A DNA stretch of 64,000 nucleotides from Strigops habroptila. Lineage: Eukaryota; Chordata; Aves; Psittaciformes; Psittacidae. Below, in pieces: positions 17,401 through 43,858 of the stretch. The notes under the pieces were generated by a model. It made no database searches and had not been told where the DNA came from. It saw only the letters and a list, made by a program, of their open reading frames with translations. The stretch lies in the NCBI RefSeq assembly GCF_004027225.2, contig NC_046358.1:7223284-7287283 (forward strand), written 5' to 3'. Position 1 is the stretch's first letter. The number at the start of each line of letters is the position of its first letter. Both the position numbers and the translations under genes were made by a program.

Positions 17401-18105
17401 GATGATCATAGCTGCTGAAGATGTAGAACCTCTTTCATGGAGAAACTTAAAACTTAACTGGACAAGGCCCAAAGCAACCTGATCTAGCTGGTCCTGCTTT
17501 AAGTAAGAGTTGAGGGAATTGACTAAAAGACCTCAAGTCTTTTCAAATTTAAATTACTCTCATCTTAGAACAGTGAAGTCTACTGCCTGGAGCAGGCTGT
17601 CTTTGTACCTCAGTGTTAATAGCAATTCAGTGAATGAAGTTGTCACCTCAGTTTTACAATGATTTGTGTTAGTGATGCTGTGCTCTTGATTTTAGCTCTT
17701 CAGTGACTGCTCATGCCCCTTCCTCTGCTCCGTTCTTCCTTCTGTTTCCTGCCTGTGCATTCCCACACAATCTAATTTTGGGAATCCAAGCCTTTCTGGG
17801 CTTTTGGCAGACTGAAAGTGCATAAGTTACATGTTGGTTGACAGCCTTTGTCCAGCTTTAATGGATGAAGTTTCTTTCTTTGGAAGGACCTTAGTCCAGA
17901 ATGAAAAACAGCAGTCTGTAGATGAAAGACCAGCATGCCAAATTGAAGACATCCCATCTTCCTGCCCACTTCCTCTACACTAGAGTAAGAAACCTTGTAG
18001 GAGAGAAGTATGCACAGTAACTTAAGTAGCTGTTTCTGAATTTTATTGCAGGTTTTGGAGAAGGTGGATGTAGAGCAGAAAATGAGCATTCGATTTCTTC
18101 ACTGA
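2382..18105 (+). CDS. CHP1: CHP1, calcineurin-like EF-hand protein 1 (complete, 7 coding exons)
   Basis: An obligate, Ca2+-binding partner of Na+/H+ exchangers such as NHE1. It also inhibits calcineurin and supports membrane traffic, and acts N-myristoylated at membranes and in the cytosol. Exons: 2382-2448, 7746-7818, 13280-13360, 14629-14756, 15524-15585, 16605-16727 and 18052-18105, all with GT-AG borders and consistent phase. They give 195 aa, the same length as the human protein. Gly2 follows the initiator Met in a myristoylation context (MGSRAST). The two canonical Ca2+-binding EF loops are residues 123-134 ([12 protein letters not shown]) and 164-175 ([12 protein letters not shown]); the N-terminal two EF-hands are degenerate, as in the family. 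The protein ends MSIRFLH. The gene diverges from EXD1 and lies upstream of Cyrano on the same strand. Identity is very secure: the protein is nearly identical to the mammalian one. Confidence 0.97.
2449..7745 (+). other. CHP1: CHP1 intron 1
   Basis: About 5.3 kb. Apart from the CpG-island tail at its start, one CR1 fragment (5491-5590) and paired small hairpins at 4422-4471, I see nothing beyond AT-rich unique sequence. Confidence 0.85.
5491..5590 (-). repeat. CR1 LINE 3'-end fragment
   Basis: Minus-oriented CR1 tail: a TCATAGAATCATAGAAT terminus followed by the conserved GGTTTGGGTTGGAAAGGACC core. About 100 bp, 5'-truncated. Confidence 0.95.
7746..7818 (+). CDS. CHP1: CHP1 coding exon 2
   Basis: Residues 23-46, first degenerate EF-hand ([19 protein letters not shown]). 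Acceptor CTGCAG, donor TTAG|GTGGGT. Confidence 0.95.
7819..13279 (+). other. CHP1: CHP1 intron 2
   Basis: About 5.5 kb of AT-rich sequence. I recognise no repeat family, RNA gene or additional exon in it. Confidence 0.8.
13280..13360 (+). CDS. CHP1: CHP1 coding exon 3
   Basis: 81 bp, residues 47-73 ([14 protein letters not shown]...FFPEG). Acceptor TACTTAG, donor GAAGG|GTGAGT. Confidence 0.95.
13361..14628 (+). other. CHP1: CHP1 intron 3
   Basis: About 1.3 kb with a poly-T run near 13785-13802. No other feature seen. Confidence 0.8.
14629..14756 (+). CDS. CHP1: CHP1 coding exon 4
   Basis: 128 bp, residues 74-116, second EF-hand and central linker ([20 protein letters not shown]...). Acceptor TATGCAG, donor CACT|GTAAGA. 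Confidence 0.95.
15524..15585 (+). CDS. CHP1: CHP1 coding exon 5
   Basis: 62 bp, residues 117-137, carrying the third EF-hand loop, a Ca2+ site ([12 protein letters not shown]). Acceptor CCCTGTAG, donor CAG|GTAAAT. Confidence 0.96.
15586..16604 (+). other. CHP1: CHP1 intron 5
   Basis: About 1 kb of unique AT-rich sequence. Nothing recognised. Confidence 0.75.
16605..16727 (+). CDS. CHP1: CHP1 coding exon 6
   Basis: 123 bp, residues 138-178, carrying the fourth EF-hand loop at 164-175. Acceptor GTTTCAG, donor AAAG|GTTGGT. Confidence 0.96.
17280..17552 (+). repeat. Degraded CR1 LINE fragment in CHP1 intron 6
   Basis: Plus-oriented, old CR1. Recognisable blocks include the GAGAAACTTAAAACTTAACTGG segment and the following CAACCTGATCTAGCTGGTCC, but the terminal repeats are gone. 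Confidence 0.65.
18052..18105 (+). CDS. CHP1: CHP1 coding exon 7 (stop)
   Basis: Residues 179-195 plus TGA at 18103-18105. Encodes the C-terminal helix containing [14 protein letters not shown]. Acceptor ATTGCAG. Confidence 0.96.
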   Translation, partial: VLEKVDVEQKMSIRFLH

Positions 18106-21559: not shown

Positions 21560-22760
21560 CCCCGGCGCTGTGAATGAAGGTTGTCATTCACACACCCGAC
21601 AGCCGCGGGCGGCGCTGGCTCCGCCGGGAATTCGCGCGGGCGGCGGCCGCGGGCACATTGCTGCGCAATGAAATGGAGGACGGGCAGGCGGGCCGTGCCT
21701 GCGGGGCAGCAGCGCAGCGGCTGTCCGGAACCCGCTCCCCGCGCCTCGGCCCCGTGGCTCTATGCGGGTCCCGGCAGAGCTGGCGGGACGCGGCCCCTGC
21801 GCCCTCTTCCCTGCCGGGCCGGGCCGCGGTCCCTCGCCCCGGGAGCGGCTCCTTTAAATCCCCCTGGAGGTCACTGGAGGATTCTCCCCGGCCAGCCCTG
21901 CTCGCGCGGCTCGAGCCAATCCTTTTCCAGGCGTGTGCCCTCCCCGGGACCAATCAGAAAGGAAAGCCTTGGAGGCGGGAGGCCAGCCTCCGTGATGGAC
22001 GGCGCTGCTGGCCAATCACTGCCCAAACTGGACGGCTGATGCATTGGTGCAGCACCCAATAGGCTTGCGGCCGGAGTAGGCGGGCCCGGCGTCGCCGGGC
22101 GCTGCGAGCCCCCCGTCGGGTGGCCGCGGTGAGGAGGGGAAGATGGCGGAGTGAGAGGGAGAGGCGGAGGGGCCGGGGCCGGCTGCGGCCCCGCGGCCTG
22201 GGCCGCGCTCAGGTGAGTGCGGTGGGGAACAACGACGACCTTGGGCGCGGAACCGCACCCAGCCCGGTGCCTGGTGCCCCGCTCCCTGATTGGGTTGGGG
22301 CCGGGTGCCCGCGCACCCGCCTCCCCGTCCTGCTCCGTGATTGGGCTGGGCCTGGGCATGTTCGCGCCCGCCGCTTCCTGAGGCGGGTGGTGCCCGCCGC
22401 CCAGCGCCGCGGACTCGGGCCGGGCCGGGCAGCGCAACTGCGCGGCTGCCCGCCCGCCTCACCCGGCAGCGCGGCCTCCGCTCCGGGGCGGGGGGCCGAG
22501 TGTGCGTGTGAGGGTCCGTGAGGTGACGGCCGGCGCCAGGCGGGGCGCGGCGGTGGGAACGTGGCCCTTCGAGCCGCCCGGAAAAGTCCGAGTAACTTCG
22601 GAGCTGGGGCGAGGCCGTGAGCGGGTGGGCAGCGGTGCGGGGCTGCAGCAGATGGCTGGGAGGGGAGAGCCTGCCTCCCGCCCAGCAGAACCTCCGGCCG
22701 AGCTGGGAACAGCCGGAACGCGCTTTCGGCGAACAGCTGCCGCTCACAGCGAACGTGGAG
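21560..22760 (+). promoter_or_regulatory. CpG island: Cyrano (OIP5-AS1) promoter with NF-Y box array
   Basis: GC-rich island containing five CCAAT boxes within 145 bp: 21916-21920, 21950-21954 (GACCAATCAG, full NF-Y context), 22012-22016, 22043-22047 (reverse) and 22056-22060. A YY1-type element AAGATGGCGGA follows at 22140-22150. There is no TATA box. The order (NF-Y array, start site, YY1 motif, donor at 22213) is that of a strong housekeeping promoter. No protein-coding start was recognised in the island, which fits a noncoding transcript. Confidence 0.75.
22100..22212 (+). ncRNA. OIP5-AS1: Cyrano exon 1 (start approximate)
   Basis: GC-rich first exon ending at CTCAG|GTGAGT (22212/22213), a near-consensus donor. 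The start is placed just after the last CCAAT box and is not resolvable to the base. Confidence 0.6.
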
Positions 22761-23998
22761 ACGAGAACCCAAAATGTACCATCCGAAATTAGCCTGTTTG
22801 TCTCCGGCTGCAAGCATAGCGCTGGGTACAGTTACTCTTCTGTTATAGTTGTTATTCCTGGAATCTGTGTGCTAAATGGATTTGACTAATCTGAATAGTT
22901 TTATCCTTCTTTTCTGATGTCTTTATGCCATAGTGACACAGACGTGCACAAAGGGGGTGGCTTCTGTGTCGTTTGACAAAATCAGAACGTGCGAGTGGTC
23001 TGTGGCACAAAATAACTTTTATGGAGAGTGGGGAGAATATAGAGGAATTGATTGTAGCCTTATGAGTTCGTGGGATTGTTGGTAATGAGACAGAAAGGAT
23101 TTTACACGTGATGAAACGTATAAAACCAGTGTCTCTCATTTCCATGTTAGTAACGTGCGCGTCAGGTATGCCATGAATGTTTCAGAATTGTTGGAGGTAT
23201 TTTGTGCTATGGAATGGAACTTTGTTTAAATTAACAAAAGGAGGGGAGGCTTCTTACTGAAAACAAAAGGCTTACTGTCATAGCATGAGATTCCTGATGT
23301 TCTGTATTTGATAACAAACCTTTAAATCTCAAGTTTGTAATAGAATTCGAAGTGACTGCATTTTCAACGTGCATGTCAGGTAAAAGTGAAAAATGGAGGT
23401 AGTTAAACGAGAAGCTTGGTTTTAGATCATGTGGAAACGTGGTGTGTTATCTTACGTGATGTAATAATAGATTAGTTGTTTGTAACTGGTGAAATAACTC
23501 AAAAGAAATACGGTGAGTGTGTTTGTCACAACCAGTTCCAAAAGCAGTAGCTGCTCATGAGAAAAATTTCCCAGGCCATGAGTTACCAGTTTCATGTGCT
23601 GTATTATTCACATAGTAACAATAATAGCAGCTTATGAGCAACGTAACATTAAGGCATAGTAAGGCTGCTACTGATGAGTATTCCTCCTGATGAATAGTCT
23701 GTGTGTGAATTGTTAAAATATACCAGGGGAATTTGCCTTTGGCATATTGCATATAAAGATAATTCTGCTTTATGTGATCATTAAAAGAATAATAACCAAT
23801 TAGCTTTCTTTCACAGGAAGTTGGATGCTATTTTTGCATTAAGTAAATTCAGTCGGATTAATATTTGTTCTGAAATGCTTTGCATGCACAAGAGCTGCGA
23901 GAAGTATCTTCAAAAGACAAAGCAACAAAAAAAATCAGAGTTTTCTGTTACTCTGGTCTATGTCAGATCAACTATTGCTGTATGATCTTGTGCACAGC

Positions 23999-24137
23999 GC
24001 TGTGAAGCTGCACGAGCAGGGTTTGCATCTTACGATGGTGACCCGTCGTTCAGGGGTGTCAAAAACCGTGGGCCAACGAAGGGTAAAAATTCTGACCGAG
24101 CCTGCGAAGAGTCGAGAGTATCTCTTGAGCGCCAAGA
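23999..24137. other. CpG-dense patch of unknown origin
   Basis: Eleven CpG dinucleotides in about 140 bp, far from any annotated promoter and surrounded by CpG-poor sequence. It shows no CR1 similarity and no coding motif I recognise. It could be a young transposable or viral-element fragment, a cryptic exon or a small regulatory island; I cannot decide. Confidence 0.35.
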
Positions 24138-24433
24138 TCCCTTGTAGAGGACAGGGGACACATCAGCTGGTGGGTCCTTAGATCTTCTGGCCTCTTCCTA
24201 GGCTGGCTTCCATTCTAGGTTTCAGATATGCCTTTGTGTACCCTTTTGGAGGTGATAGTGGTCTGTGTCTCTACCACCCCACTCTGTGGATAACCAGGGT
24301 TCCTTATCTCCAGATCTCCTGGGATCTTGATGAGCTGCTAACCTTATGCTGTTTACACAAGGCTTTTGAGAGCCCTGTTCCTATTCTATGTTCCTTTTGG
24401 CACCTTCACACTCAGGCACTCCCTTTCTTAAGG

Positions 24434-24672
24434 GGGCTGGAGCACCTCCGTGTGAAGAAAGGCTGAGAAAATCTGGACTGTTCAGCCTGGAGAACAGAAG
24501 CTGCGTGGAGACCTCAGAGCAGCTTCCAGTGTCTGAAGGGAGCCTATGAGGATGCTGGAGAGGGACTCTTCATCAGGGGCTATAGTGATAGGACAAAGGG
24601 GTAATGGGTTTAAGCTTAAATAGGAGAGGTTCAGGTTAGGTATAAGGAAAGTTCTTTCTCCAGTCACCCCAG
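24434..24672 (+). repeat. CR1 LINE internal fragment
   Basis: Plus-oriented CR1 from the end of ORF2 and 3' UTR: GGCTGGAGCACCTCCGTGTG, then TTCAGCCTGGAGAACAGAAG, then GATAGGACAAAGGGGTAATG. The terminal repeats are missing. Confidence 0.9.
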
Positions 24673-26865
24673 TCTTAGCCTTTCTATTACAGTTCTCTAC
24701 ATTGGGTTTAGATGACTTGTTAAAAGTTAGTTAGAAAGTGGAAGGAGCACAAAGACAGCTGATTTTTTTGCAGGACTCTAAGTTACTTCTACTGTATTTT
24801 GTGCTTCTGATTTAAGCTTTTGTCATTATCAGCTTTTCAGGTTAAATTTGACCCTTTTTAAAGCATGGGAAAGACCTTAGTGGAGTTGTGGTCTGGAGCA
24901 CTTTCTGTATGTTCACACATCACCACAGTTAACTTTCAAGTTTTCCTGTCTTGGTCTTTTTACCTAAACCTGCTTCCAGATCTTTCCTTCCTCACATACT
25001 TCTCAGGCTGTAGGGAAGAGAAATTATCTTCTATGTCCCTGTTAAAACTGCTTATCTCCTGGAGCATTTGCATATGTGGGAGAGAAAAATAGTATTTTGG
25101 AAAGCTGGATTTGGTGGATCTGAGTTTTTCCTGACCAGTGTAATTAAAACTAAAGGTACCTTAAAAAGGAGTGTGTGGGGTGGGGTGAAACTTGGTAGCA
25201 TAACTGTAAGCTGTTGATTTTAGTATAGTTTCCAATCCTGTGTACTGATTATGTCAGAACATTGACTTTTTGTCCTCTTTTCTTTTTTCCCCATTGGTGC
25301 ATTGGTAATAGGGCATGTGGAGCTATACAGAAGGATAAATGCTGCCATTTTGCTGGTAAATTTATTCATGAGATACTACTTCATCTCTTTTTGGCTTTGA
25401 AATTCCTGAAGTTAAGTTGCCTGTATCCAAGAAGTTGTCTATCTGAATGTGAGATTTGAAGTTCGTGGAAACTAACCTTTAGTTATGGTAGTTAAAAAAA
25501 AAAAAAAAATGGGCAATAGGCCAAAACTTAATAAAAATAATACTTTCTGAACCCTTATCAGAAAAAGATTATATGATATATTTTTGAGTTATAATAATAT
25601 ATAATTGAGTTTTCATAAATATTTCATGTCCTAGTTCAATAGATAGTATGTTCAGGAAGGTATGAAACAAGAAAAATAGTCCTTTTTTTTTCTTCCTTCA
25701 TAATTTTCACTAGCTTTTAAGTGTAGAGTTGATCTTGTCACCATCACTTTCAGTGCCTGCTGATTTTCAGTAGCCTTGATTTATATCCAGTTGCATTTGC
25801 AAGTTCTGTTGGTACGAGTGTGAACTCTGCTCCCACACAATCTATGAAAGTCTGATAGAAAGTATATCAAGCAAAGCAGTTAAAACCCAGGGCATGCAAA
25901 GGCAGTGAACTTGTTATAATGAAAATTAAAAATAAAGTAGATTAAAGCCAACTAAATTTCAGTATTGGATAAACCATTCCTTTGTATGAGTTGCTTTAAG
26001 TGTCACCTCCTGCTTTCTTATAATAAGCCTTACTTTAATGTTTAGTTTAGTTAATTCATAGTTTTAGAACAAGTGAAAGAAAACCCAACTTTTCAAAGAT
26101 TGGCCTTGGGAATTGTTTCTGTTCTGATAAGTAAGTTTGGGAGAGTTCCTGATAGCTGTTCCTTATCAAATTAGTTGGTTTGTGAATCATTTGCTGTTTG
26201 TTCCTCAACCTCTCAAAGCTGAATAGTGCTTGGCAGGCGCTTGAGGGAGGATTTGAGTAGGAAGGGTCAGAATTGACAAGACAAGAATGGAGTAACTACC
26301 CTGAAATCCAGGGCTAGGGGTTATCTGTGGATTTTCTGAAGGTGTAGGGCCCTGGTGCTTGCAGAAATGCTATTGTGCAGGAGGTGCTTTGGTGAGGATA
26401 CTGGGAGGTTTTAATAGCGTAAGTCTTGTGTGATGAAATAGCTCTGCCTGTAGCAATCCATTATTCTTGCAGTTAGGTTGTCTCCTCAGCATCCTGGAGA
26501 ACAGTCATTATGCTTCCTTGCTACAGTGGTTTGTTATTAATGTGAAAGAATTTCTTGCCTTACTGGAGGCTGAAATTGTGTCTAAGTTCCTATGAAATGT
26601 GTGTCTGTTGATGATAGCTTACCATAACAAGGGCATTTATCTTCAGAATATGCACAATTAAAAAGTTATTTTGGTAGTGATGTATATTTCATGCTCCAGG
26701 GATAGTGTGTTGAGCATGGGCTGTACGCTGCTCTCAATAAGTAGAAACCAAGAAATTCCAGGGAAAAAGGGAGTTCAGTACTGTGTAAACTACATTCTCT
26801 GGAATGAATGACAGGCATGATTTTATTCCAGGAAGCAGAATGGTTTCTGAACAAAAGCCTTTCAG

Positions 26866-27370
26866 GCATGTGCACCTGGAATACTGTGCTCAGTTCTGGG
26901 CCCCTCACTACAAGAAAGACATTGAGGTGCTGGAGTGGGTCCAGAGAAGGGCAGTGGAGCTGGTGAAGGGTCTGAAGCACCAGTCTGATGAGGAACGGCT
27001 GAGGGACCTGGAGGGGTTTACTCAGGAGAGGAGAAGGCTCAGGGGGGATCTTATCGCTCTTTACAACGATCTGAAAGGAGGTTCTAGTGAGGTGGGGTCG
27101 GTCTCTTCTCCCAGGTAACAAGTGATAGTAGGTAGTGGCTTCAAGCTGTGCCAGGGGAGGTTTAGATTGGATATTAGGAACTATTTCTTCATGGAGAGTG
27201 TGCTCAGGCATTGGAACAGGCTGCCCAGGGCAGTGGTGGAATTGCTGTCCCTGGAAGTGTTCAAAACTCAGTGACATGGGTTAGTGGTGGCCTTGGCAGT
27301 CCTGGGGTAATGGTTGGACTTGATGATCTTAAAGGTCTTTTCCAACCCAGTTGATTCTGTGATTCTGTAT
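26866..27370 (+). repeat. CR1 LINE fragment with intact 3' terminus
   Basis: Longest CR1 in the window, about 505 bp. It begins within the last part of the reverse-transcriptase ORF (peptide [20 protein letters not shown]) and ends with the terminal repeats GATTCTGTGATTCTGTA. It is 5'-truncated and not a host gene. Confidence 0.95.
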
Positions 27371-27644
27371 GCTTCCCTCCAGCCTGTTTGTAATTCAGGT
27401 TTGCTCTCCTGGGTCTTCCCTACTTGGGCCCAATTCACTCCACCATCCTTTTCCTTAACTAAAGGAAAGGGGTGGGTATAATAATTTGAAAAGTAACATC
27501 AATATTTTTTCTGTAGAATGTCCAAAACCATCAACTGGTTCCTGGAAGGTGCAGCTAATCTTTTGTGTCTTGTGCACATAATCATGTATGAACCGAATAG
27601 CTTCCTAGATGCAAACTTAATTTCGTTTGTTCATCTCTCTCTAG

Positions 27645-27681
27645 GCTCAATGAAGAGAATGTGGATTGATCAAAAATAATG
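27645..27681 (+). ncRNA. OIP5-AS1: Candidate 37-nt internal exon of Cyrano
   Basis: A pyrimidine-rich acceptor (TCATCTCTCTCTAG) and a strong donor (AATG|GTGAGTAA) flank 37 nt on the plus strand. The good paired signals support an exon, but chance pairs occur in long introns. Confidence 0.4.
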
Positions 27682-30600
27682 GTGAGTAAAGCCATAGGTA
27701 CTAAGTATCAGGTACTAAACTTGTCAAGTTTGTTGGTTGATTTAGGGTTTTTTTAGGTTTTTGGTTGGTTGGTTTGGTTTTTGTTTTGTTTCTGTCCAAA
27801 GAAATCAGTCATTGAGATTTTAGTATTTCATAGGATACTTCCAGAGAACTGGAATGTTGCCACAGTGCCAGCTTTCAGCTTGGCCTTCTCTTGAAAGAAC
27901 CTTGATCTGTCTATATATTCTAACAGGAATAAATGCTTTAAAGTTAGACAATTCCTGTCCCATGATATCATTTTGCTCTGCTAAGAGACACTAATTGTGT
28001 AACTGTATTAACTTGGAGTAGTTATCTTAAAAGTTGTATTTGTTAAACAGTAGGATTGGAAGAATGATAACACAAACAAATGTCAATTATCAAACAGGAA
28101 GTACATTCAAAATGTCTAAGGATGATCATCAACTTGTGGTGTTTTAATTTTTTATTTTCTTTTTCCATTGAATGAAATAAAGATATTTTGGTAGTTAAGA
28201 TGTGTAATGCAGTGCTATATTCTGTTCTCAGCTCTGCCACAAACTTTTGGCATGTTTTGTTGCTGCTCTCCAGGTCTGTTTTCCCTCATCTTCGTCATAA
28301 GAATAAGACTTTCCCAACAGTGTGAGCATGGATGGTCGAGCTCATGATCAGCTGAAGTATTTGAGTGCCTCAGAGAGAACGTGATGGTGATGTGTGCTCT
28401 ATTTCCATTTTCATAATCTACTCTTCACTTTTAACATAGGAGTTGAAAATTGTCATGGGAAGATTATTTCTGAACTTGATCAACTAAAGGGTTAAGGTAA
28501 TTAGAATAAGGTAAGAAATACAGACAGAGAAGAGAGGAAGGGGTTACAAAATACACTGTATCCTCATGTTCTTGTATGTGAGAAAGAGAAACCAAGGGAA
28601 AAAATTCTCTTTCACGTCTCTCGTTGTAGTACAGGAGAATGATAATAAATATACCTGGCACTAGGTATGCAGGAGCACATGCCTGTTTCCTTCCAAGCCA
28701 GCCTGGCATCAAACTTAAAGCAAGAAAACAAAAATTATGTCTTAACAGCTACTGTGACTCGGTGATACAAGGTGAGTGTCACTGTGAAAGGCCAGGAGAT
28801 CAGGCAGAAGATGAGTTACTGAAGTATATCTGCGCTGTGGATAAGTGGGGAAAAATGAGTAAAAGTAAATACCTGATCTGTGTGATCTTACAACTGTCAT
28901 TAAGTGCTTTTTTCCTCTACAGCACTGACAGTTTCGTGGTCAATTAGGGGATAGTTTAGGGATAGTTATTTCTTTGAATTGTGACCTGCCATAGCAGAAC
29001 ATACTCTGTGTGCAGGCAGTGTGCATTCAGGTGCTTCCTCAACATTGTGATGCTGTATGTTGGAGCCACAGTTAAGGAGCCCTGTACCTAATTAACAGTG
29101 GTATGTTTTGGATGCATTGCTCCTGAGTGAGCGTAGAGTTCAGTGTTTCTGTAGCATTTCCTTAGACAGTTTATGGAGATCTACAGTTACATAAAGAATC
29201 TTGGAGCAAGGGATTATTGCAGGTTGGGAAGCCAGCTAATTTTGTCTATTACAATTAGGCTTTTAAAGTAATGAACCAGTAGGCATGTTAATGTTGAGTG
29301 TATTTTATTCTGATTGCTAAACTACCTCTCCTTTTTATTTTGGGATTCCAGATCCTCTCCTGACATTCAAGAAGGTGGTCCTGTTGCTTGCTCGTAGGCT
29401 GTGAAGTGTTGATGTTTCTCTTCTAGCAAGCAAAAACCTGTCCTTCGCTTCCATGGAGCTGAACGAACAAAGATCTCTCCACTTCCTGTTTCAACCATCT
29501 CACCCAACATTTGATTCACCAGATGACTTCTCCCACAGAAGTACCCCATCATTTTATCAAAACTCAAAAGCAGAGTAACAGAAATCAGCATTTGTTTCCC
29601 TGAAGAAATGCCTTCTGTGCCAGCTCTTCATCCAGCTCTTAGCATTCTGTTTTAAAATAAGAATTGTTTTGTAATCAGGTGCAAGTGGAAGCTGGTGTTC
29701 TTCACTGATATCTCCTGCTTCATTTTAGGAAGGTTAAGTACTTCACTGTGTTATATTGGAAGTCCTAGCAGATAAAGTGTCTGCATGCATTGCTGTGTTG
29801 AACTGTCTTGACATGCTTAAAAATTTGCAGTAGGAAAACCAGAATGTATTTTCTGCTCTGACATGAGGAAGAAACTTGCCAAGCAGTTGGAGACATCCCA
29901 TACAGGTATTTTCTAGTCCAGGACCCAGGCTTGACTTTGTAGATAGATGTCTTTGATGTCAACTTGCATAAAGCAGCTAATGCAGAGGAACAAATGCAGA
30001 ATCACCTTGTCTATAGTGTGTAAATGCATTGTCCCAGTCTGTGATCAAAATGTGTATTTGCATGTCTAAACCTATGTAAGTGCTGGATATGAAGAGCTTT
30101 CACCAGAAGGAGAAATTACTCTGCACCATTTCATTTTTAGCGAAGAAGAATGAAGCTTTAAAGGCCTCTGGGGTAACACGATAATGATTAGGTTTATGTT
30201 AAATCATTCGCCCTTCTGTCTTTTTATGAATCCTTAGCAGCAAAAGGAAGAAAACCAGGAGCATATGGTAGAAGAGATGGGGCAGAAACTTCTTTCTTTA
30301 AGAAATTAACTTCTGGTGGGATGGAAGAGACCAGAGAGGTGAAGTCGCAGTTTATCCACTTGGCTTCCTTGGCGCAGTTTGAGTTTTCCATACTGCTGAT
30401 GGAATCAGTTTTTTGATTCTTCTGTGACTGAGAACTGACATGACCTGTATGTTACCACCTTTAAGGTAGGAACAGGCCCAAAAGAACAGGCTGTTACCAC
30501 GTAAGAGGGATGATTTGAGAGAAAAGAAATACTTAGGACAGGCCTTTTTTGGTTCCTCTTACTCTTTCCCAAACTAAGACGTAATCTGTTGTTCTTATGT

Positions 30601-32188
30601 TTACACAAGATTCTTTGTTTCCATCATTTGTGATTATATAGGATGTTTTCTGTTGTTCTGAGATGGGAGCCTATATTGGTTACATGTTCCCTGCTGTGGT
30701 ATTATATATGGGAAGTAAGATTTCTTGGCGAAAAACCCCACAACTGGGATATGTATTCTATTCCACTTCAAATCTGGAGCTCTTCTTAGTGCACCTTATT
30801 CCAAGCTTGTGATTTAGCAAATGTGACTTACTAGCTTAAAGTAATATTTTCAAATCTGGATCAAATAAAGGTATATAGGTTCTGTTAATAGGTTTGGGGA
30901 GATAATAGAATCGTTGGGGGTGGGGGGTGGTGGTTTAGATTTCTTCTTTTGTTCTGTTTTGCCTTTTAGAAAACTGCTGGAGAGAGTCAGACAGCCTGAA
31001 AGTGGCTGACAAAGCCGACGACTGAAATCCTTAAATCTTAATGATTGATTGCAAGGGCAGTATGCTGATATTTAAAATGTGGTCACATTTTATGGGACCA
31101 AGTTCCATATAGCAAAGTAAGGGCAAGTGTTGATGTCGATCCTCCTCTTCAGAGTTAAGTCTGTGTTTAGACTTGCATTGTAACAACACGATTTAATGAC
31201 AGCTTTCCCATTTTTTGTGTCCATGAAGAAAAGAGCAGACATGAAAGTGGTGGGCAAGACACCGCCTATCAAAGTAATGCCAACTGTAATGAGCACTAAA
31301 ATTTTGTGTAACATTGCAATGAGCTGTTCGATCACAGTCACGTTGGTCTTGATGAGGCAACCACCAGCTTGGCCTGACTTTTAAGAACATAGGATTGCTG
31401 AACATGGTCTGAATTTTCTGGCACTGGAGGCAAGTAGAAAAGCACACTTCCTTTTAAGGCCTCCTTTTGTTGAAACCAGTGGGATTTAAAGTAGATGTCT
31501 GTAGAAGCAGGATCCTTCTCTAAGTGATGGAAAATACTGTCAATGTCATAGGATTGTAAATGGTTGGGAGGTATCTGGTGGAAGAAACAGCTGATTTTAG
31601 ATTTGGGAATTTCCTTTTCTTCCTTCTGGTGTTAGGGCTAGCAGTTGTTTCTTGCATAGCTTGATGACAAAATAACTGGGGGACAGGAAGGTATTTTTGT
31701 TTCCTGTGGACATGTACAAAAACAAAGCATCTGTCTGACTGGAGAGTAGACACTTTAAGCTCTTTGATTTATTTTTCCATAGAAATAACCCTCACCATTT
31801 TGTAACCCTGCATTGTAACAAAAAATAGAATTGCTGACTTTTCCTGACTCTTCTCCATAGCAATGTTAACATCAGTTTTCCAGTTTAATTTTAGAACATA
31901 ATATTTCTAGCAGGCTAAGGATCTGTGGCTTTCACGGAAGTCATACCCATGCATGCCCAGAAGACCCCCACTGCCGTACATTTCTGGCCAGCACCTTTAC
32001 AAAACTGCTGTGTTGGGAAATGCTGCCTCAGCCTACTTTTTATTGTTCCACTTTTTTTCTCTGTGTTGGTTGGAAATCTTCCCATGTGAAACATGACAAA
32101 AACAAGGGGCGTGTGCAATAGAACATATATATATACATATATATATTTTAATACTTGTGGACAAAATGATGTTACAAGTTGTTTGAAA

Positions 32189-32213
32189 ACAACAAAATCA
32201 CCAATGTCTTCCA
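32189..32213 (+). promoter_or_regulatory. Cyrano miR-7 target site (target-directed miRNA degradation type)
   Basis: The 3' half is GTCTTCCA (32206-32213), pairing miR-7 positions 1-8. The 5' half is ACAACAAAATCAC (32189-32201), pairing the whole miR-7 3' region. The 4-nt CAAT between them faces 2 nt of miR-7, giving a small internal loop. Known Cyrano function depends on exactly this architecture: seed plus extensive 3' pairing with a short central loop. Confidence 0.93.
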
Positions 32214-32865
32214 TTTTGAGATGTGTATAGTTCCATAAGCATTAGTGCTTTGTAGCAAACTGTAGTGCCATGTTAGGATCAGTGCATGAGCCTAGTAGTA
32301 TTTTTACAATTTGAGTGACAAATTTATTAATAAACAGTGATAATAATGTAATTAACAATAGAAAGGATACAATAGAAATGTCACAAACATGGTCTAAACA
32401 TGCAGTATCCTCCCTTTGACAATGGCAACGCTATCTTTAGAAATGAATGCCTTTACCTGATGGGCTTCATAGAATCATAGTTGACTTTGTGCTTTTAGTC
32501 TGTCTGTTCAACTGCAATAGTAAGCTGCTGTATGTAAGCATCCAGGATCCTCATCTATATCGGTGGGATTCTTTTTAGTCTTTGTTTAAGGTGTTTTCTT
32601 TCATGGGCAGCTCTTGCAATTTTATTATTACCCATCCTGTGATTGATAGACTCAGAAACGTACAAATATGTTGATGAGTTTGTGTGCATTTTGTGCACAT
32701 CTCTGCTACTGTGAGATCATCTGCAACAGCTCTTAGGTAATTTTTTCTTCAGCTATGACTATATAATCGTTACAACTAGTTAAACATTATCCTCATTATA
32801 TAATAAGTTGATGGTTGCAAAATGCTTTCTGCCAGTTATGCGTAGAAGACTTTTATCCATTATTG

Positions 32866-33054
32866 CAGGAATGGGGAACCTTTTTTGACTGAGGTCCTGT
32901 TGAATCTTTTAATACCTGTGGTGGATCCTGCATTTACATACATCTTAATAAGAGAGATTGTAATAAGGTCAAGGGCTGTTGAAAAACAATATTGCAGACT
33001 GTATCTGTGCAGCAGGCTATCTTGAGCCTATGGGTCAGAGATTCCCCACCCCTG
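32866..33054. mobile_element. Non-autonomous hAT-type DNA transposon (MITE) with 8-bp TSD
   Basis: Terminal inverted repeats: the left end CAGGAATGGGGAACCTTTTT matches the reverse complement of the right end (CAGGGGTGGGGAATCTCTGA) over the first ~16 bases with few mismatches. Flanking 8-mers CATTATTG (32858-32865) and TATTATTG (33055-33062) agree at 7 of 8, the duplication length of hAT transposases. It is 189 bp with no coding capacity. The CAGG-TGGGGAAcCT terminus is typical of Charlie-like hAT elements. Confidence 0.8.
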
Positions 33055-36000
33055 TATTATTGAGAATTCAATATCCTGTATTTTAGGTAACTTCCAGTGT
33101 TGCTTTCCGGCTCTAAGCTCAATTTTAATAATTTCTGTCTCTCCCTCTGCTTTTTTCAGAAAGAAAGTTTAGACCAGGGGAAGTCCAAATGGTTTAGCTC
33201 TCAGTGGGCAGCTTGGACTGGTCAAATAAGAGGCTGGTATGATTCCAGATGTCCGATGCTCTGTGGATGGCATCCTCTGATTTCCTAGGAGAAAGTCTTT
33301 TATTTGGTGACAGTATTGCTCTTCACCCATTTGTATCTTCTACAAGAACAAAATTCTCCTTCAGCTTAGAGAGGATACTGCATCTTTTTTTCCTGAGACC
33401 TGCCTGTAAATGGCCATTAGGGGGAGGGAGGGAATGGGTAGCTTGGTTTTGATATGATATATCTCTAAAGTGATTAATCAAGAAGCATGTACCTGGGTTC
33501 AAAACCAGTAACCCGGGCAGAGTTAATGTATGTAACAGGGAAAGCAAACAAACAAACCTCCCCAAACAAATCCAAACAACCAACCCTCTGCATCTAATAG
33601 ATTTGCAAGAAAATTGGTCAGGAGGGCCATTTACAGCAGAGCTCTGGGGACCTTTGCTGAGAGTTAGTTTCAATGCTCTATGGAAGTAGCTGTACCATTG
33701 AATATAGTAGTTTTAGCGCTTGGGAGAATCATTTGAAAAATACCTCTGAAACTGGAATGCAAAATAGCACAGTATGTAGGGGGAAGAATCCCTGATGCAA
33801 ACAAAGCCATAAGATGATTTAATAAGAAAATAGAACTTTAGTAGCAATAACTGTTTTGCATGTGATAGTAACTAACTTGCTTTAGCAAGACTGTACAGTA
33901 GAATAAGTGGGTAATAACCAAATAAGTTTGTGGCGCTCTGTGCTGCAGGGAGTTGCGTGAAGAGTCTCTTCCTGAGAACATGGGTGAATTCCTCTTACGT
34001 TCCTCTCATTCGAGGGAATTTAGCACTTGAATACTTTGTTAATGAACCTGAGATATATATATCTATAGAAAACAAAAAAGCTCTGTGACATGTCTGAAGC
34101 ACTGCAGTGAGTGCTGGGGAAGAGCAGACAGGTCTTTTTGAGAGGATAGCTGAAGTTTCCCTATATTTCTTTCTCTTTTGTAGTCTAGCACTTCTGTTTC
34201 TCTGAGAAGAAACTAAACCCTTCCAAATACTGGAGCGTGAAGAGAACCTGATTCTGAAGTTAAAAGCTTTTATTGTGGGAAGTACTTCTTGTTTTCTTTG
34301 GTTAAAAAGACCAATCTGAGATGGTCTTTAAGAAATTAGAGAACACTTGACGCTCAACCCATTTGTGCAGCCCCAGCACAATTGTAGAGTTCTACAAATG
34401 TGGCTTTGCAGCAAAATAATTTTAGCCTTGCTAAACACTGTTTGAAACCATAATTGATTTCTGTTGATGCCTGAAGTTTTGCAGAGGCAAGTACTGTGGA
34501 GCCTCTGGTAAAGGCTTATTGATCTACAACTGTAGCCTCTGCACCCAGCAAAGTATTTGCTATCGCAGGGTTACATAAAAGAGCCACAGGAGTTCTAAAA
34601 TGTTCATAGTTGATGCTGCTTTCAGTGTGGATAGGTAGAGACAATAGGGCCTAAGAGATAGTAACTCTGTTCAGAATACATTATTACATCAGAGGTTTGA
34701 ATCTCTCTGGCTGGATTTCTTCTAGGAAGCTGAGGCAATTTGAAGTGTAACTTACTTACAGCTGAAAGGAAGCTTCTAATGTTTAGAAATTATGGAGGTG
34801 AAGCCCTTTGGCTCTTCAGAAGTTGAGAATGGGACTGTGAGGGCTGTGAGCATTTTTGCAGTATAAAGCAACCAAGATAAGCATGAGAATGTCTAAATTA
34901 AGTGTTGGATAATTTGTACTATGTGTATGAAAAGCTAATTGATCTGGAAAGTTGTAATCCGCTTAAATTCCAGCTAATGAATTATTGATCAAATTGGCAG
35001 CTGCCCATAGGGGACTTTAATTTGATTGTTATCTGCTTACATTAGAGAAATTATAAATTTATCTAGACTGTGGTCAGCAAATACATTTCCATAGTAATGA
35101 AAACACGGTCATTTTCCTGCTTCGGAAGTATGAACTTGTGGCTAAATAGAATTCAAGGGTTTCTTCATTCAGAGAACGGGAAAGGGAGAGGGGGAAGGAA
35201 TCAAGACTCCTGTAGCCAGGCGAGCTGTCTGTCTATTCTTCCCAGATCAGCCTTCTTATAGTGGTATGTATTTTATTGTCTACTAGACTAGAAATCACTG
35301 TTCACAGCAGCAAAAGGAATCCCTTTGCGTTTCAGCTCTTGTAGTCTATGGCAGGACTTTTGCCCCAACCCCCTTGATTACACTGCTAAAACTGAATGGT
35401 GTGTTAGATGCTACCACATTTCGGTGTGGGATATCAAAGGTCTAGTGACCAGTACTGACATGCCTCTTAGCAGAGCTAAACCCAGATGATTACAAGTACG
35501 TGCTATTTCCATATCCATTAGTGCTGCTGCAGAAGGTCTAGCCAGAACTTGTGTTGGGAATTGCACCTTCAGGAATTGCACCTTCTCCAAGTAAGGATAA
35601 TTGTCAAATTCAGGACAAAAAAGAAAGTCTTGCAAAGACTCCTGGATAGTGAGAAGAAAATGTACAGAGCTTCAGGACACTGACACGTTACACAAGGGTT
35701 ACATTGTCAAGAGTTGGCAGTGGGTTTTGGGCAGAGAAGGGAAAAATATGGAAGAACAGGTTCCAGTGAATAATCAGTCTTGGAAATAACTACTTCCTGC
35801 ATCCCTAGGAAACTGTCTGGTCTTCCTCCAAAACTAATGTTGCTGTTCAGATACAGAGCTGCATAATGGCAGTTCAAATACTGAATGTTCCAGCATTTTG
35901 CCCCTGTACTGCTTTGGCTGGCACACAAAGGCCAACAGTTGAACCAGGGTGTCTGGTTTAACAGTGCAGAACACTTAACGATGGATTCTGATGTCTCTTC

Positions 36001-37578
36001 CCTTTCAGTCTGCTCTACACTTTCTCCTGAGTTTTGGAGAAGGTGTCAATGTTCATGATGTAGGCAGGGTGTGTTTCTGTGTCTGAGCCTATGTACCAGG
36101 TCATAATATAGGCAGATTCCCTACGGCTTTACAACATCTAAAGTTAAAGATAAAAAGTAATTTAGTGTTTAGTGTGTCCTATGTAAATCCTGTCTGCTTC
36201 TCTCCACTTGCCCTCCAAGTGAGCGTGCTTGCAGGTCAAATTAAAGGTGTCTAGTTCGGAATGACTTAGGCATGAAGAACTGCATGGAGAAACTGAAGGC
36301 AAGCGGCACAGGCCCACAAACCAGATCTTAGAGCTAGTATTCTAATTATGCATGATTCAAAATGTCTAGTGTAATGTAGTTATTACCAGTAAACTGAGAT
36401 ATGCATTTATACATAACGAAGCAATAGGAATTAATATACCAATAGCTTGAACTTCCTGCTTTGATTCTCAAATTTTGGGTTTTTTGGTTTTTTAGAGAAT
36501 GTGCTGCCCCTGTAGAGAAAGGGGCAGAATGTATAGATAGGGACAGAAGCATGGCACCAAAACTGTAAATCAGGAACCAGGATCAGCAGAACTCGCCTTT
36601 ATAACCTCTTGTCTGGTTCATAGTAGTGCCCTGAGCATGTAAAAAGCAGGGCATGGACTAAGCATGTTTAGGGGCGAGATGAGGTTTCTCACCTGCTGCA
36701 GCTGTAGCAAGGAAAAGGGTGCAGAGTTTCTTACAAGGTGCAGGGGGGAGGAACTGGTGAGGGGAAAAAAAACAACAAACAAATAAGTAATGGAAATCAC
36801 AGATTCAAATTGAGTGTAGTATTTCCCAGACAGTAAGGTCATAAGCTTGGTTGTGGTGAGAGAAATTATTTGAAGACTGAAATTAATAAGCACAGTACAT
36901 ATATTTCAGGTGTTGAATAGCTTTTTAATAGACAGTATTTTCAGGTAACTCTCTAGCCACATAGGCAGCTGTACTGAAGCATACTGGTACCAGCCAGCAA
37001 TAATGGCACCTGCAGGAATGAACCTGAAAATACTGGTAATCTTCTTGTATAGTTCTTAAGTTCTTTAAAGAGATTTTTAAAAACAGTAACTGAGATTTGA
37101 GCACTGAAGGTCTTTATCTTCTGCAACACAGGTTGCAATAGTGGGGTTTTTTTCCTTTATTTCACTTACTAATAAAAGGGAATTTGGGTGCCATCTTTCT
37201 GTAGGCTTTTAGGGTGTTCTCTGGAATACTTCCCAAGTCCTTCAGTGAATAATGCAGTGAATTTCTGCTGGCAGTTTGAAAATAGAACATGTGGCATAGC
37301 CTACGTCACTAATACTTTTCCAAGTTTAAACTTGTATTCAGACACGTAGAATACTAGCTTTTAGTGCAGATTTCCATACTTCTAGCTTAGCTTAATTTTG
37401 TAGGTGGGCTTAACTTGTGCAGAACACTTCTCCATGTACAGGGGCACAGTCCTCTTAAATAGCAAGTGTCTTGGAGGAAGAAATTGTGTGTCAAGTTAAC
37501 TCCTGTTCATGCTTCATAGCCAACCATCCACAAAGCACCGTGATTTGGGTTAGAATGGGGGTTGTGTTTTTCTCATGA

Positions 37579-37716
37579 ATGTTCTTTCTAGATTTAGAAG
37601 AATTGCCAAATGAAGCTAGGAATGTTCTAAGAGAAGATGACTATTTAATGGCATCAGAAGTTAGACTAAATGAAATCCTTGGAGCCAACTTCTTCAAGCA
37701 AAAAGGGAATTTGTAA
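37579..37716 (+). CDS. Unidentified 45-codon ORF in the Cyrano 3' region
   Basis: ATG 37579 to TAA 37716. The peptide begins MFFLDLEELP and ends GANFFKQKGNL. It is acidic and helix-like, with no membrane segment or low-complexity run. The composition (many Glu, Asp, Asn, Leu and Arg) looks more protein-like than neighbouring short ORFs. A splice-acceptor-like TTCTTTCTAG ends at 37591, so it could instead be the terminal exon of an unseen transcript, a coding relic, or chance. I do not recognise a family. Confidence 0.3.
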   Translation: MFFLDLEELPNEARNVLREDDYLMASEVRLNEILGANFFKQKGNL

Positions 37717-38263
37717 CACAAGTTTAGCTCAGCAGTAAACCATGGTCACCTGCTTCTTAGTGGGTATTCTTTAGAACACTTTGCATGCTTTTAAACTTTC
37801 ATGTTTTCTTTTGTGTGGTGAGTAAGCAGTTGTATCCTTTGTTAATGCTTATTCCCCTCAATATAAAACCTGGGAATAAGCTACTTTAGGATGTCAGTGA
37901 AGATTATCTCCTTTTCAAAAGCATGATACAACAGCAAAGGAGAAGTATTAGTGTTTAAAAATTACCTTAGTACTTAAAAAACAAGCTAGAAAATACTTCT
38001 TATGTTGAACTTCTGATGCTGTGCTCACATGGGTTATTATTGGTGTCACTAGGAACTACGTATTCCCATTGCACTTGTTTTACATGGTAACAGTGAAAGA
38101 ATGTCTCCCTGCAAATTCTGATGTTTTTCCAAAAGGCAGCTTGCTTTTATATCTATGCATCTTTGAGGATTTCAAGATAAGATTTTATTCTTTTGACACT
38201 GTAAAGAGGAACTGTTTAAAAATGAACTTGGAAACTCTGCACCTGTATACAAATTTTTTTAGC

Positions 38264-38269
38264 AATAAA
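38264..38269 (+). terminator. Candidate Cyrano poly(A) signal
   Basis: AATAAA on the plus strand before the convergent OIP5 3' end. Alternatives are at 39095 and 39738. Confidence 0.35.
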
Positions 38270-38890
38270 GCAGCACAGGCTGAGAATGCACTAAAACTGG
38301 ATGTGTCATTTGTTCAGAAGACAAATTAACCGACTTGCCATACACTCTGCTTCTGAGGTGTGTTTGTACTTGCTCTACCTGTGTCTAAACTCAACAATTT
38401 AGGCTGAACCTACAGGTCCAGCTGTCCCAGCACACTTCAGGCACAGGAGCCTCACGACTTCTCAGAAGGCAGCTAAAGAAAAGTTACTCTGCTCATACTA
38501 AGATGGGCAACATCTCAGATAAAGCTTTAAGGGCTGGTTTAGATGGTCACAGAAAGCTTCTTGCTTGCAGATTGGCCGAATTAATAAGCCCTTTAAAAAA
38601 CTTTCATAGAAGTGCATTGTTTATTGTTTGGGCGACTCCATCTCTGAATAACTCCTCCTATGGCTGGCATCTCTCAACCTGCAGGGAAGCACAACTTCCC
38701 TTGCAGTTGGTGCCAAAATGCTGTAATGCAGCAGGACAGTGTGTCAGCTCAGGACAGTGCTGAAGAAGCCATGGTTCCCAGCCCTGCTACGACCCTTCCA
38801 AAGCCTGTTCTGGATTGCTAACCCTTAAGCTAGTTTATAGAAGGTTTTCAGTATGATTGTTACTTCAGTAGCCTGTTCAATCACCTTTGT

Positions 38891-39806: not shown

Positions 39807-39947
39807 CTATTGCATATCCTCACAGTAGCCCAGCTGCATCTGATGCAAAGCTCTGCTCTTCTGCCCATTGGTTTTTTTCTCCAGTTTCTCCAGCTTCTCA
39901 ATCAGTGATTCCATGCGAGTGTGGGTCTCCACAAGCTTTTCCTTCAG
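39807..39947 (-). CDS. OIP5: OIP5 coding exon 5 (stop)
   Basis: Residues 178-223 and TAG. Amphipathic, probably coiled-coil C-terminus. Acceptor with a long pyrimidine run, CTTTTTTTTTCTAG. Confidence 0.92.
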   Translation of the reverse strand: MKEKLVETHTRMESLIEKLEKLEKKTNGQKSRALHQMQLGYCEDMQ

Positions 39948-42900
39948 CTAGAAAAAAAAAGAACTAAGATATTAAGACTGCAACAGAGAAATATCCTAAC
40001 ACTGGATCTTTGAATGATCTGCACCCCTCTTGCAGTGGTTGTAGAGCAGTTGGCTTTCAAGATGGAAAATTATACTGGGCTTTAATCTCTATACTGCATG
40101 TCTAGTCCAGCCAAAACTGGCACCCAAATCAGGCCTGTGCTACAGAGAGACAGATGAATGTGTGGCAGCATAGCCCCTTTCAGAGCTGTATGGAAATACT
40201 CAAGGAGACAGAGCTGCTGGAACCTTTTTACGAGCAATCCAATATTCCCTAACTCATGTTTTCACACAGACAGAGACCTTGACAGTCTCAGGACAGGCTG
40301 TTTCATCATTAGCTTAGGGAAACAGATGGACAGTCCTTCAAAAATGCCATTTCCAGAGGCTGGGGTTTAAGTTAACACATTAAAAGCACAAGAGGAAAAT
40401 CCTGCTGACATTGTGTGTCAAAAAGCAAAGACCAGATTCTTGTTAATGAGCAAACTCTCCACAGTTACATGATTTGTGTTTGCACTCAAGAACTACTATT
40501 GTTTTACTTAAGAATAAGCTTTAAGTCTTGCCTTTCTTTTAGCCTCACTTGACCTGTAAAAATACTCTGATCTTACAGCAAGACACTGGAAGATGACTTT
40601 AAGGAGGGCAAAACTCAAGAAATGCCACGGGCCCATTTCCATGCTTAGAGCAGAAGCTAAAAAGAAAAGAATTTAAGAAACAAGCATGTGAATATCAGAC
40701 ACATGTGAATACCGGATACACTGGCTGTCTCCCACATGCAGGAGCTTTATTTGAGCTATGGGACAGACAATTCAGTAAGACAACAACTAACCAACTTACA
40801 GAAAAACGCATCCAATTTAAACACCCAAAAAAGAGGGAGGTTCTAGTGGTGCCTCTGAAGCTACAGTAAACGCTGCCATGCTGCTTTGAGCTCACATAGC
40901 CTTGAATACACCTTCCAAATTAACAAATTGCTGTTCTTTAAAGTCTCCAATGGTGACTGATCAATTCCAGGCACAACACAAGTAGGTTGAGGCGTCCCTG
41001 CTCATGGCAGGAAGGTTGGAACTAGATGATCTTAAGGTTGTCTCCAACCCAAACCATTCTATGGTTCTATGATACTTGAACAAAGTCTGTCTAAAAGATT
41101 CTTGGGCTTTTTTCTTTTCAAAGTATAGAGATAAAAGTGTGCCATACACACTTTGGCAAGAAAGTAGCTAGAACCGGATATGTTTTGGAGATAAGTGGTT
41201 CTAGAAAATGTTTGGCATGTCTCACACACTTAAGTCAGTCACTGTGTTATACGTCACTATTTTCTCCATCTTATGCACTTAAAACTGTATCAATATTTTT
41301 GGACTAATATAAAAAAATACTCCTTTTAATATTTTCCATACAAATGAATGTAGAAACCTTACATGTTGCATTTGTTCCCTTAAGGTCACAGTAGGAAAAT
41401 TCACCTTAGAAGCTTCTACTACGATGTGGGATTTTAAGAGGTAACTGGAAAACAAAAGAAGAAACAAAACCAAGAAAAACAATTAAAGCACCCATAGCTG
41501 AATTCATTGTTTAGACAGATTATTTAAGATGATTTTAAAGCAGATAAAAAGTTGTTGCCAAAAGTAGTCAATACACTATGAAAAGATTAAAAACATAACA
41601 AGGGTTTTACTTGGAAATCATAAGATCCTCTCATCACCAGCTATAATTTTCAGTTACTACAGTCAAGTCCTCAGTCTATCATGGAACTACTTTGACACCT
41701 TATGTTAGCTTAGTGAATCTGGAACAGAAGATTTCAGTATTGCAAACCTTGATGTTACATGAGGATAAGAAGCACAAGTCAAATGGAGTCAGGCCAACAC
41801 CAACAATTAAAACCAGAGGATATTGCAATCCCACATCAATGCGCTCGGTCAAAATGAGCTGTAGATTAGTTATAATGACTTACAAATTGCCATGCAACCA
41901 CTGGCCATAAGAACAGAGCACGCTCACCAGAGGATGCTGTCCTTGAAGAAACAGAAGAGGCCTCGGAGATACGCCAGGTCCCTGGGGGCAGAATAAAGAA
42001 TGAAGCCCACGATCAAGCCACACAACCGACAGGCCAATGTGTTGTAAGCACTAAGAGGAGCAAGGGGAAAATAGTATTAAACAGAAGCATCTGAAACCAT
42101 AGATACAGCACGCTTGTGAGAAGACAGCAAACCAGGGCATAATAATAATGCTTTCTCCTTAAAGAAATATTACATACAAAGAGAACATAAATGTAAAACG
42201 TTTGGGCATGTTGTGCAAGAAATAATCTCTGTAAGAAATGAAGCTGCAATTAAGGAAGAAAATAGATGTCTTATTATCACAGAGTGGTTTAGGCTGTAGT
42301 ACTCAAAAGAAGATTTAACTGGTAAAACACCTGTGCCGGGTCATAGATGTGACATTTCCTCCTGATAAAACAGATTGTTACCTCATACAGAGAGAGGAAG
42401 GGGAAAAAAAAAAGGGAAAAAATAAAAAGCAAGTCTTATAAAGTTCCCAGGCCCTATAATTAGTAAAATACCCTTTAAATGCCATTTAAACAAACAGGTT
42501 CTGTAAGTCCTCAGGTGGTATTTACAGTCTTCCCATCAGACTAACCCGAGTTATCGAGCCTGTTGATAACTGTAGGCTTGTGAACGGAGCAGCAGGAGAT
42601 AATAATTTTCAGTACATATATATATATATATATATAAAAACAACAAACAACCAAACCCCGAAGAGAGATGCTTTAATTCAGGTAACAGACCTTCAAGGGA
42701 AGGAGAGAAGAGCCTCAAAGGCTTCTGCTCAAACGCTCCTTCCCACCACCAAAGGTTTGAGCAGCAGAACTTCTGATTCTGACCAAATGACAGCCGCGCA
42801 CCCTCACGAGCTCCCTCGCTCCGCAGCGCACCCCAGCGCCGGCCCAGCCCGCTCAATGCCCCGCGGAGGCAGCTCCCGGCAGGCCGGTGCCCCGAGCAAG

Positions 42901-43353
42901 CGGTAGGCGAGCTACGCACCATCCCAGCAGGGCTCCCTCCAGGCCGATCATCAGCGAGTCCTTCGAGATCACGTCGTTTGTGACTCCTGAGGAGAAAGAC
43001 GGACCCGCTGAAACCCGGACCCGCCGCACCAGCCACCCGCCGGCACCCCCAACCCGCGCCCCCAGGGCACCCCCCGCCCGAGGCGGGCACTGACGGAAGC
43101 AGATGAGGATGCCGAGCAGCTGCTCCTCCTGCGCGCACAGATGCAGCGAGTCGCCCAGCACCGTCCAGCAGCCGCGGCACTGGAACACGGCGCATGGCTC
43201 CGGCAGCGACACCGGCTCCGCAGCCTGCGGCGAGGAAGGCGGCAACACCTGGACCCGCGGGACAGCGGCGGGTGACGACGGCTGCTCCACAACGACGATG
43301 CTGCTGGGCTCCGGGTCGTGCAACACCTCCCCCAGCTGCCGCCGCACCGCCAT
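39807..43353 (-). CDS. OIP5: OIP5 / Mis18-beta (complete, 5 coding exons)
   Basis: Mis18-beta, a subunit of the Mis18 complex that licenses centromeres for CENP-A loading after mitosis. Exons on the minus strand: 43353-43095, 42986-42920, 42050-41928, 41444-41363 and 39947-39807. They are in phase and give 223 aa (human 229). The Yippee-like Mis18 domain uses two CxxC zinc pairs, both visible: C59-C62 (FQCRGC) and C116-C119 (ACRLCG). The C-terminus is a helical segment rich in Leu, Lys and Glu (from LKEKLVETHTRMESLIEKLE), the part that multimerises Mis18 subunits. The N-terminal ~50 residues are Pro/Ser/Val-rich and poorly conserved. Start chosen at MAVRRQ; an in-frame ATG at 43395 would add 14 residues. 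The exon 1 donor GTCAGT and exon 2 donor GTGCGT are slightly unusual. Confidence 0.95.
39948..41362 (-). other. OIP5: OIP5 intron 4
   Basis: About 1.4 kb with one CR1 fragment (40981-41072). Otherwise nothing recognised. Confidence 0.8.
40981..41072 (+). repeat. CR1 LINE 3'-end fragment
   Basis: Plus-oriented: CGTCCCTGCTCATGGCAGG, then GGAACTAGATGATCTTAAGG, ending CATTCTATGGTTCTATGA. Confidence 0.93.
41363..41444 (-). CDS. OIP5: OIP5 coding exon 4
   Basis: 82 bp, residues 150-177 (CYLLKSHIVVEASKV...). Acceptor TTTTCCAG, donor CAT|GTAAGG. Confidence 0.93.
41928..42050 (-). CDS. OIP5: OIP5 coding exon 3
   Basis: 123 bp, residues 109-149, with the second zinc CxxC (C116, C119). Acceptor CTCTTAG, donor CTCTG|GTGAGC. 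Confidence 0.94.
42051..42919 (-). other. OIP5: OIP5 intron 2
   Basis: Contains an (AT)n microsatellite at about 42615-42638 and the edge of the CpG island. Nothing else recognised. Confidence 0.7.
42615..42638. repeat. (AT)n microsatellite
   Basis: About 24 bp of alternating A/T in OIP5 intron 2. Confidence 0.9.
42920..42986 (-). CDS. OIP5: OIP5 coding exon 2
   Basis: 67 bp, residues 87-108 (RVTNDVISKDSLMIGLEG...). Acceptor TCTCCTCAG, donor GATG|GTGCGT. Confidence 0.93.
43095..43353 (-). CDS. OIP5: OIP5 coding exon 1
   Basis: Residues 1-86: variable N-terminus and the first zinc CxxC (C59, C62). Donor TTCC|GTCAGT. Confidence 0.9.
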
Positions 43354-43762: not shown

Positions 43763-43858
43763 ATGGCGCCGTCCCCGCTGCGGCAGCAGCTCGAAGCGCT
43801 GAAATACGCCGAGCTCCAGCGGATCGCGAAGGCCGCTGGGCTGAAGGCCAACCTGCGG
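43763..43858 (+). CDS. NUSAP1: NUSAP1 coding exon 1
   Basis: Residues 1-32, first part of the SAP-like segment. Start in CTCGCCATGG; donor CGG|GTGAGG. Confidence 0.93.

Follow-up and report, generated by a model that had tools for sequence, protein, structure and literature searches.

Does this bird genome encode a Cyrano RNA with an intact miR-7 site, and would such a site bring about the decay of miR-7 rather than the cutting of Cyrano? An earlier note on a 64,000-nucleotide stretch of Strigops habroptila DNA (hereafter the window) had proposed both, pointing to 13 nucleotides that match the 3' half of miR-7, the four letters CAAT and an 8-nucleotide seed match. We found these letters on the plus strand exactly as claimed (Table 1). 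The site is very probably the miR-7 trigger of the bird orthologue of Cyrano (OIP5-AS1), with decay extrapolated from work in mammals.

Table 1. Positions of the features discussed, numbered within the window unless a contig is named. Elements credited to PMC7798263 are as given in the available part of that paper.
Feature	Position	Strand	Detail or basis
CHP1 exons, upstream neighbour	2382..18102	+	Hand-joined translation against PDB CHP1 chains, E 5.4e-109
Putative Cyrano (OIP5-AS1) transcription unit, about 16.2 kb	22110..38290	+	Ends approximate, from elements
Near-TISU start, 5' end of Cyrano	22139..22154	+	GAAGATGGCGGA; element in PMC7798263
Consensus donor, probable exon 1 end at 22212	22210..22218	+	CAG/GTGAGT
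Candidate 3' splice site, exon start 31861	31830..31868	+	Crude consensus scan
miR-25/92 seed match, Cyrano element 2	32112..32120	+	TGTGCAATA; UGUGCAAUA in PMC7798263
Putative miR-7 trigger site	32189..32213	+	ACAACAAAATCAC-CAAT-GTCTTCCA
Segment pairing with miR-7 nt 11-24, 14 nt	32188..32201	+	13 nt if begun at 32189
Internal loop of putative trigger, 4 nt unpaired	32202..32205	+	CAAT; wild-type CYRANO loop length is 4 in available part of PMC13083262
miR-7 seed match, 8 nt	32206..32213	+	GTCTTCCA
Pumilio-like element, Cyrano element 6	32224..32230	+	TGTATAG (UGUAUAG); PMC7798263
Rbfox-type element	32283..32289	+	TGCATGA (WGCAUGA); PMC7798263
miR-153 seed match	38153..38159	+	CTATGCA (CUAUGCA); PMC7798263
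Polyadenylation signal / miR-137 site, Cyrano 3' end	38262..38269	+	GCAATAAA (GCAAUAAA); PMC7798263
OIP5 exons, downstream convergent neighbour	39882..43203	-	Yippee-Mis18 domain
NUSAP1 exons	43763..53032	+	NUSAP domain
NDUFAF1-like open stretch	60667..61308	-	CIA30 domain
Third miR-7 hairpin	contig 21 (5.65 Mb), 4880791-4880880		Mature nt 11 is A, not G

The miR-7 site and its predicted duplex

Using what we take to be the miR-7 sequence, we predicted a duplex of eight seed pairs, a 2x4 internal loop (two nucleotides of the miRNA facing four of the target) and 14 distal pairs, at -29.5 kcal/mol. The 13 nucleotides from 32,189 pair with miR-7 nucleotides 11–23, and the A at 32,188 extends contiguous 3' pairing to 14 – the same count that the available text of PMC10899785 gives for Cyrano. 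The features of a trigger of target-directed degradation (TDMD), namely a seed match, an unpaired loop and extensive 3' pairing, are all present at the site.

The seed match is predicted to be of average accessibility (46th percentile) and the distal part to be more accessible (74th and 95th percentile for two 8-mers). The local RNA fold around the site is ordinary (z -0.27; its stability is equalled or bettered in 83 of 200 shuffles), and we accordingly rejected a special RNA structure there. A cloverleaf proposed by others for Cyrano is described as inconclusive in PMC8250186 and as lacking covariation power in PMC10370758, in the parts of these papers available. A TA-repeat tract (window 32,125–32,146) lies between the miR-25/92 and miR-7 sites; one predicted fold, itself weakly favoured, pairs the tract with sequence shortly past the miR-7 site.

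We compared the site with chance expectation, with the rest of the genome and with other miRNAs. When the window was shuffled 100 times with its dinucleotide composition preserved, no match to the site arose, even with up to three mismatches allowed. A gapped pattern, in which the seed and distal parts are separated by 2–6 nucleotides, had three exact matches in the 1.15-Gb genome (a 1.149-Gb assembly of 89 contigs, with the window on contig 4 at 7,223,284–7,287,283): this site and two miR-7 genes, both matched on their antisense strand. The antisense matches are expected, since the pattern must be complementary to miR-7, and a backward-pattern control had no match genome-wide. That the only other exact genome matches are of this kind, together with the shuffles, argues that the site did not arise by chance. 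A 201-base piece around the site has one match in the genome, and the core is thus single-copy.

Energy predictions and pairing counts likewise single out miR-7. When both strands were scanned in 32-nucleotide windows at 5-nucleotide steps, the next-best non-overlapping duplex reached -20.3 kcal/mol, against -29.5 at the site; against the Cyrano unit, 30 versions of miR-7 whose 3' halves had been scrambled gave a best score of -26.0 and a mean of -20.5. Under a TDMD-like rule requiring a 7mer-m8 seed and counting contiguous Watson-Crick 3' pairs, a panel of 74 conserved miRNAs, miR-7 included, placed miR-7 first over 22,101–38,300 (+) with 14 pairs and miR-15a next with six, and none of the other 73 had a TDMD-like site in the Cyrano unit. 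On the whole plus strand the runner-up was miR-27b, with seven pairs at 10,314, and 200 panels with shuffled 3' halves reached at most 10. An Rfam scan of the window found no family at its gathering score, and a text search of the literature for the letters of the site returned no match.

Identity of the locus

By its sequence elements and its neighbours, the locus is the bird orthologue of the lncRNA Cyrano. Gene order in the window is CHP1, Cyrano, OIP5, NUSAP1 and a CIA30 gene, with OIP5 convergent on the opposite strand. CHP1 upstream and the OIP5/NUSAP1/CIA30 stretch downstream mark this as the Cyrano neighbourhood, in the order that we take to hold for CHP1, OIP5 and NUSAP1 around human Cyrano. 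The queries used for these three genes were presumed human sequences, and PDB and Pfam matches support the assignments. Elsewhere in the window, a CpG-rich stretch between OIP5 (-) and NUSAP1 (+) (window 42,501–44,500) is probably a shared two-way promoter, and six open reading frames tried upstream of CHP1 (window 1–1,500) had no Pfam match.

Conserved elements point to the same gene. In 2021, PMC7798263 compared Cyrano in 18 species with usable RNA-seq, chicken included; its available text reports nine elements conserved in all but shark, and for seven of these both of its tests gave significance. Of the nine, six are printed as letters and two are characterised by their pairing to either end of miR-7; these eight can be tested here, and every one was found, in order, over 22.1–38.3 kb. 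Spacing also agrees with that paper: 68 nucleotides separate the miR-25/92 element from the miR-7 site (about 60 there) and 52 the Pumilio-like from the Rbfox element (about 55), while the miR-153 site and the polyadenylation signal lie 109 nucleotides apart, start to start (about 100).

In shuffle tests whose distance ranges were chosen after the element positions were known, the miR-25/92 9-mer recurred in 0.3% of shuffled flanks, the Pumilio-like element in 1.5% and the Rbfox element in 2.9%. Of 20,000 flank shuffles, 0.05% held more than one of these three elements, and the pair of miR-153 site and polyadenylation signal recurred in 0.15% of 2,000 shuffles over 10 kb. For the start, the SAASATGGCGG form is significant (0.26% of shuffled islands), while bare ATGGCG, present in 52% of 5,000 shuffled islands, carries no significance.

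The unit would begin at a near-TISU start with AUGGCG at 22,143, which agrees with the TISU consensus at 11 of 12 bases and begins a three-codon reading frame, ATG-GCG-GAG-TGA. The exact 12-base consensus, as described in the available part of PMC7798263, had no match, the start here being one base off; this mismatch does not decide membership in Cyrano, because the conserved AUGGCG and the three-codon frame are both present. A crude consensus scan gave three candidate acceptors upstream of the miR-7 site (27,645; 31,636; 31,861) and, besides the donor at the probable end of exon 1, a further strong candidate donor at 28,771. Five open reading frames of the unit were tried and had no Pfam match. 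A CR1-tail-like remnant lies inside the unit about 250 nucleotides downstream of the miR-7 site (window 32,467–32,480), and another at window 5,491–5,504. Genome-wide, a 20-mer of the CR1 tail occurs 8,884 times (4,391 + 4,493) and its backward control not at all; such CR1 abundance in a genome of this size suits a bird, since crocodiles and turtles, CR1-rich as well, have roughly double the DNA.

Much of the earlier note stands on this evidence. Its assignment to Cyrano is borne out by synteny, by the eight testable elements in order and by a near-TISU start with a consensus donor after it, and its 16-kb noncoding gene agrees with the approximate extent of the putative unit. It had called the gene otherwise unannotatable, which does not hold: even without the miR-7 site, the gene can be placed from synteny and from the conserved elements at its two ends. 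Presence in other birds, on which the note had made its proposal depend, is supported for chicken by the statement of PMC7798263 rather than by sequence comparison.

Judged from published elements and synteny rather than from an alignment to human or chicken sequences, the locus resembles Cyrano/OIP5-AS1 of human, mouse, chicken and fish in its neighbours, its eight ordered elements, its loop of four and its 14 distal pairs; it differs in that the unit here is about 16 kb. The core is single-copy, whereas human and mouse have a second copy according to PMC8250186. That paper aligned 27 Cyrano sequences from 100 vertebrate genomes, and its available text mentions mammals, marsupials and fish but no birds. 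A bird Cyrano with a miR-7 site is a sound and ordinary result, and already known, since PMC7798263 includes chicken Cyrano.

Partner genes and the proposed fate of miR-7

TDMD requires a cognate miRNA and ZSWIM8, and both are encoded in the same genome. Among the best candidates scored, three miR-7 hairpins lie above the Rfam mir-7 cut-off, a count that leaves room for a further, diverged copy; a pattern search returned the same three. Two of the three encode the exact 24-nucleotide miR-7, which pairs fully with the Cyrano site, and one of these genes adjoins HNRNPK exons, identified with a query that we take to be HNRNPK. Exons of ZSWIM8 type cluster on contig 5 in three stretches, the strongest sharing 57 of 59 residues with ZSWIM8 of PDB 9rwz and the weakest with an internal stop in its aligned part.

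Under the mechanism proposed, AGO-miR-7 would bind the Cyrano site, and the internal loop would block slicing and bend the duplex. The 3' end of miR-7 would then exit the PAZ pocket and ZSWIM8-CUL3 would ubiquitylate AGO, so that miR-7 is destroyed and Cyrano survives. With human components, ubiquitylation of AGO2-miR-7 by ZSWIM8-CUL3 occurs essentially only when the trigger RNA is present, a change from the wild-type loop length of four substantially reduces binding and ubiquitylation, and about 25 nucleotides of flank per side suffice (PMC13083262, available part). Over 98% of miR-7 is lost to Cyrano in some mouse tissues according to the text available of PMC10899785. According to the available part of PMC11260338, zebrafish show a neurodevelopmental phenotype on knockdown, and mice with a knockout seem normal.

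Other readings of the site were weighed against this one. That it matches by chance, in unrelated intergenic or intronic DNA, is scarcely credible. Very large collections do contain chance matches, since two bacterial contigs in a 257-Gb genome collection carry the gapped pattern where rough arithmetic with even base composition gives about 0.6 expected (a viral contig collection had none); but the shuffles of the window yielded no match, the site is unique in the genome apart from the antisense miR-7 genes, and synteny and the order of the elements refute this reading. Very improbable, too, is a conserved DNA element, such as an enhancer, in place of an RNA function. Such an element would accord with the fact that expression in this bird rests on inference, but the conserved units are RNA-level sites (miRNA seeds, Pumilio, Rbfox and a polyadenylation signal) that all lie on one strand, a near-TISU start and a donor are present, and the complementarity is to miR-7. 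On these grounds we rejected it; chicken Cyrano, moreover, was curated from RNA-seq, as PMC7798263 states.

It is also improbable that the Cyrano site in birds serves chiefly as a sponge or an ordinary target of miR-7, with Cyrano lowered or miR-7 sequestered and miR-7 itself left undegraded. Seed pairing would recruit AGO for repression as well, and our search of literature listings and abstract openings found no work on miR-7 decay in birds. A single site nevertheless makes a poor sponge by established reasoning, also given in PMC11260338, and the 14-nucleotide distal pairing and loop of four are TDMD features that seed repression does not need; ZSWIM8 is, in addition, present in the genome. 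Target-directed degradation of miR-7 is thus the best reading, consistent with a loop length of four and with the miR-7 and ZSWIM8 genes encoded. The same loop length, the same distal pairing and the 8-nucleotide seed match make the mechanism known from mammals the best explanation of the site.

We also compared the site with other RNAs that bind miRNAs. The TDMD triggers libra/NREP and HSUR1 involve a different miRNA, gene and sequence, and are not known to be homologous to Cyrano. What libra/NREP with miR-29b and HSUR1 with miR-27a have in common with the site is seed pairing, an unpaired bridge and extensive 3' pairing (PMC10899785, PMC7798263 and PMC13083262, available parts). Cdr1as (ciRS-7) also binds miR-7, but is circular, has more than 70 seed-type sites and is described in PMC10899785 as eutherian-specific. 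Since the RNA that this decay protects in mouse is described as restricted in this way, the benefit of miR-7 decay in the bird must differ.

A miR-7 paralogue with A at position 11

At nucleotide 11 of its mature sequence the third miR-7 hairpin carries A in place of G and, in its other arm, U where the two other hairpins have C. Pairing within the hairpin can therefore be kept; in the predicted minimum-energy fold, A11 is bulged and A10 pairs with that U instead. On the Cyrano site, the A11 miR-7 loses the pair with C32201 that borders the loop, which would enlarge the predicted loop from 2x4 to 3x5 and weaken the duplex from -29.5 to -26.3 kcal/mol. Given the reported sensitivity of ZSWIM8 recognition to loop length, the A11 miR-7 may be a weaker substrate of Cyrano.

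This paralogue is a small new lead, and it may partly escape Cyrano. We hold only tentatively, as a possibility that is on balance doubtful, that Cyrano discriminates among the miR-7 paralogues of this bird and that the A11 copy is naturally Cyrano-resistant. Chicken mir-7-1, -2, -3 and 7b are placed on chromosomes Z, 10, 28 and 1 in PMC2777939, whose available part gives no sequences, and the available main texts searched did not contain the gga-miR-7b sequence for comparison with the A11 copy. If expressed, the A11 miR-7 would be a natural test of loop length as a determinant of TDMD.

The sequence architecture of Cyrano-directed miR-7 decay is present in a bird, alongside genes for miR-7 and ZSWIM8. 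Because Cdr1as is described as eutherian-specific, birds are a setting in which an older purpose of the link between Cyrano and miR-7 may be found.
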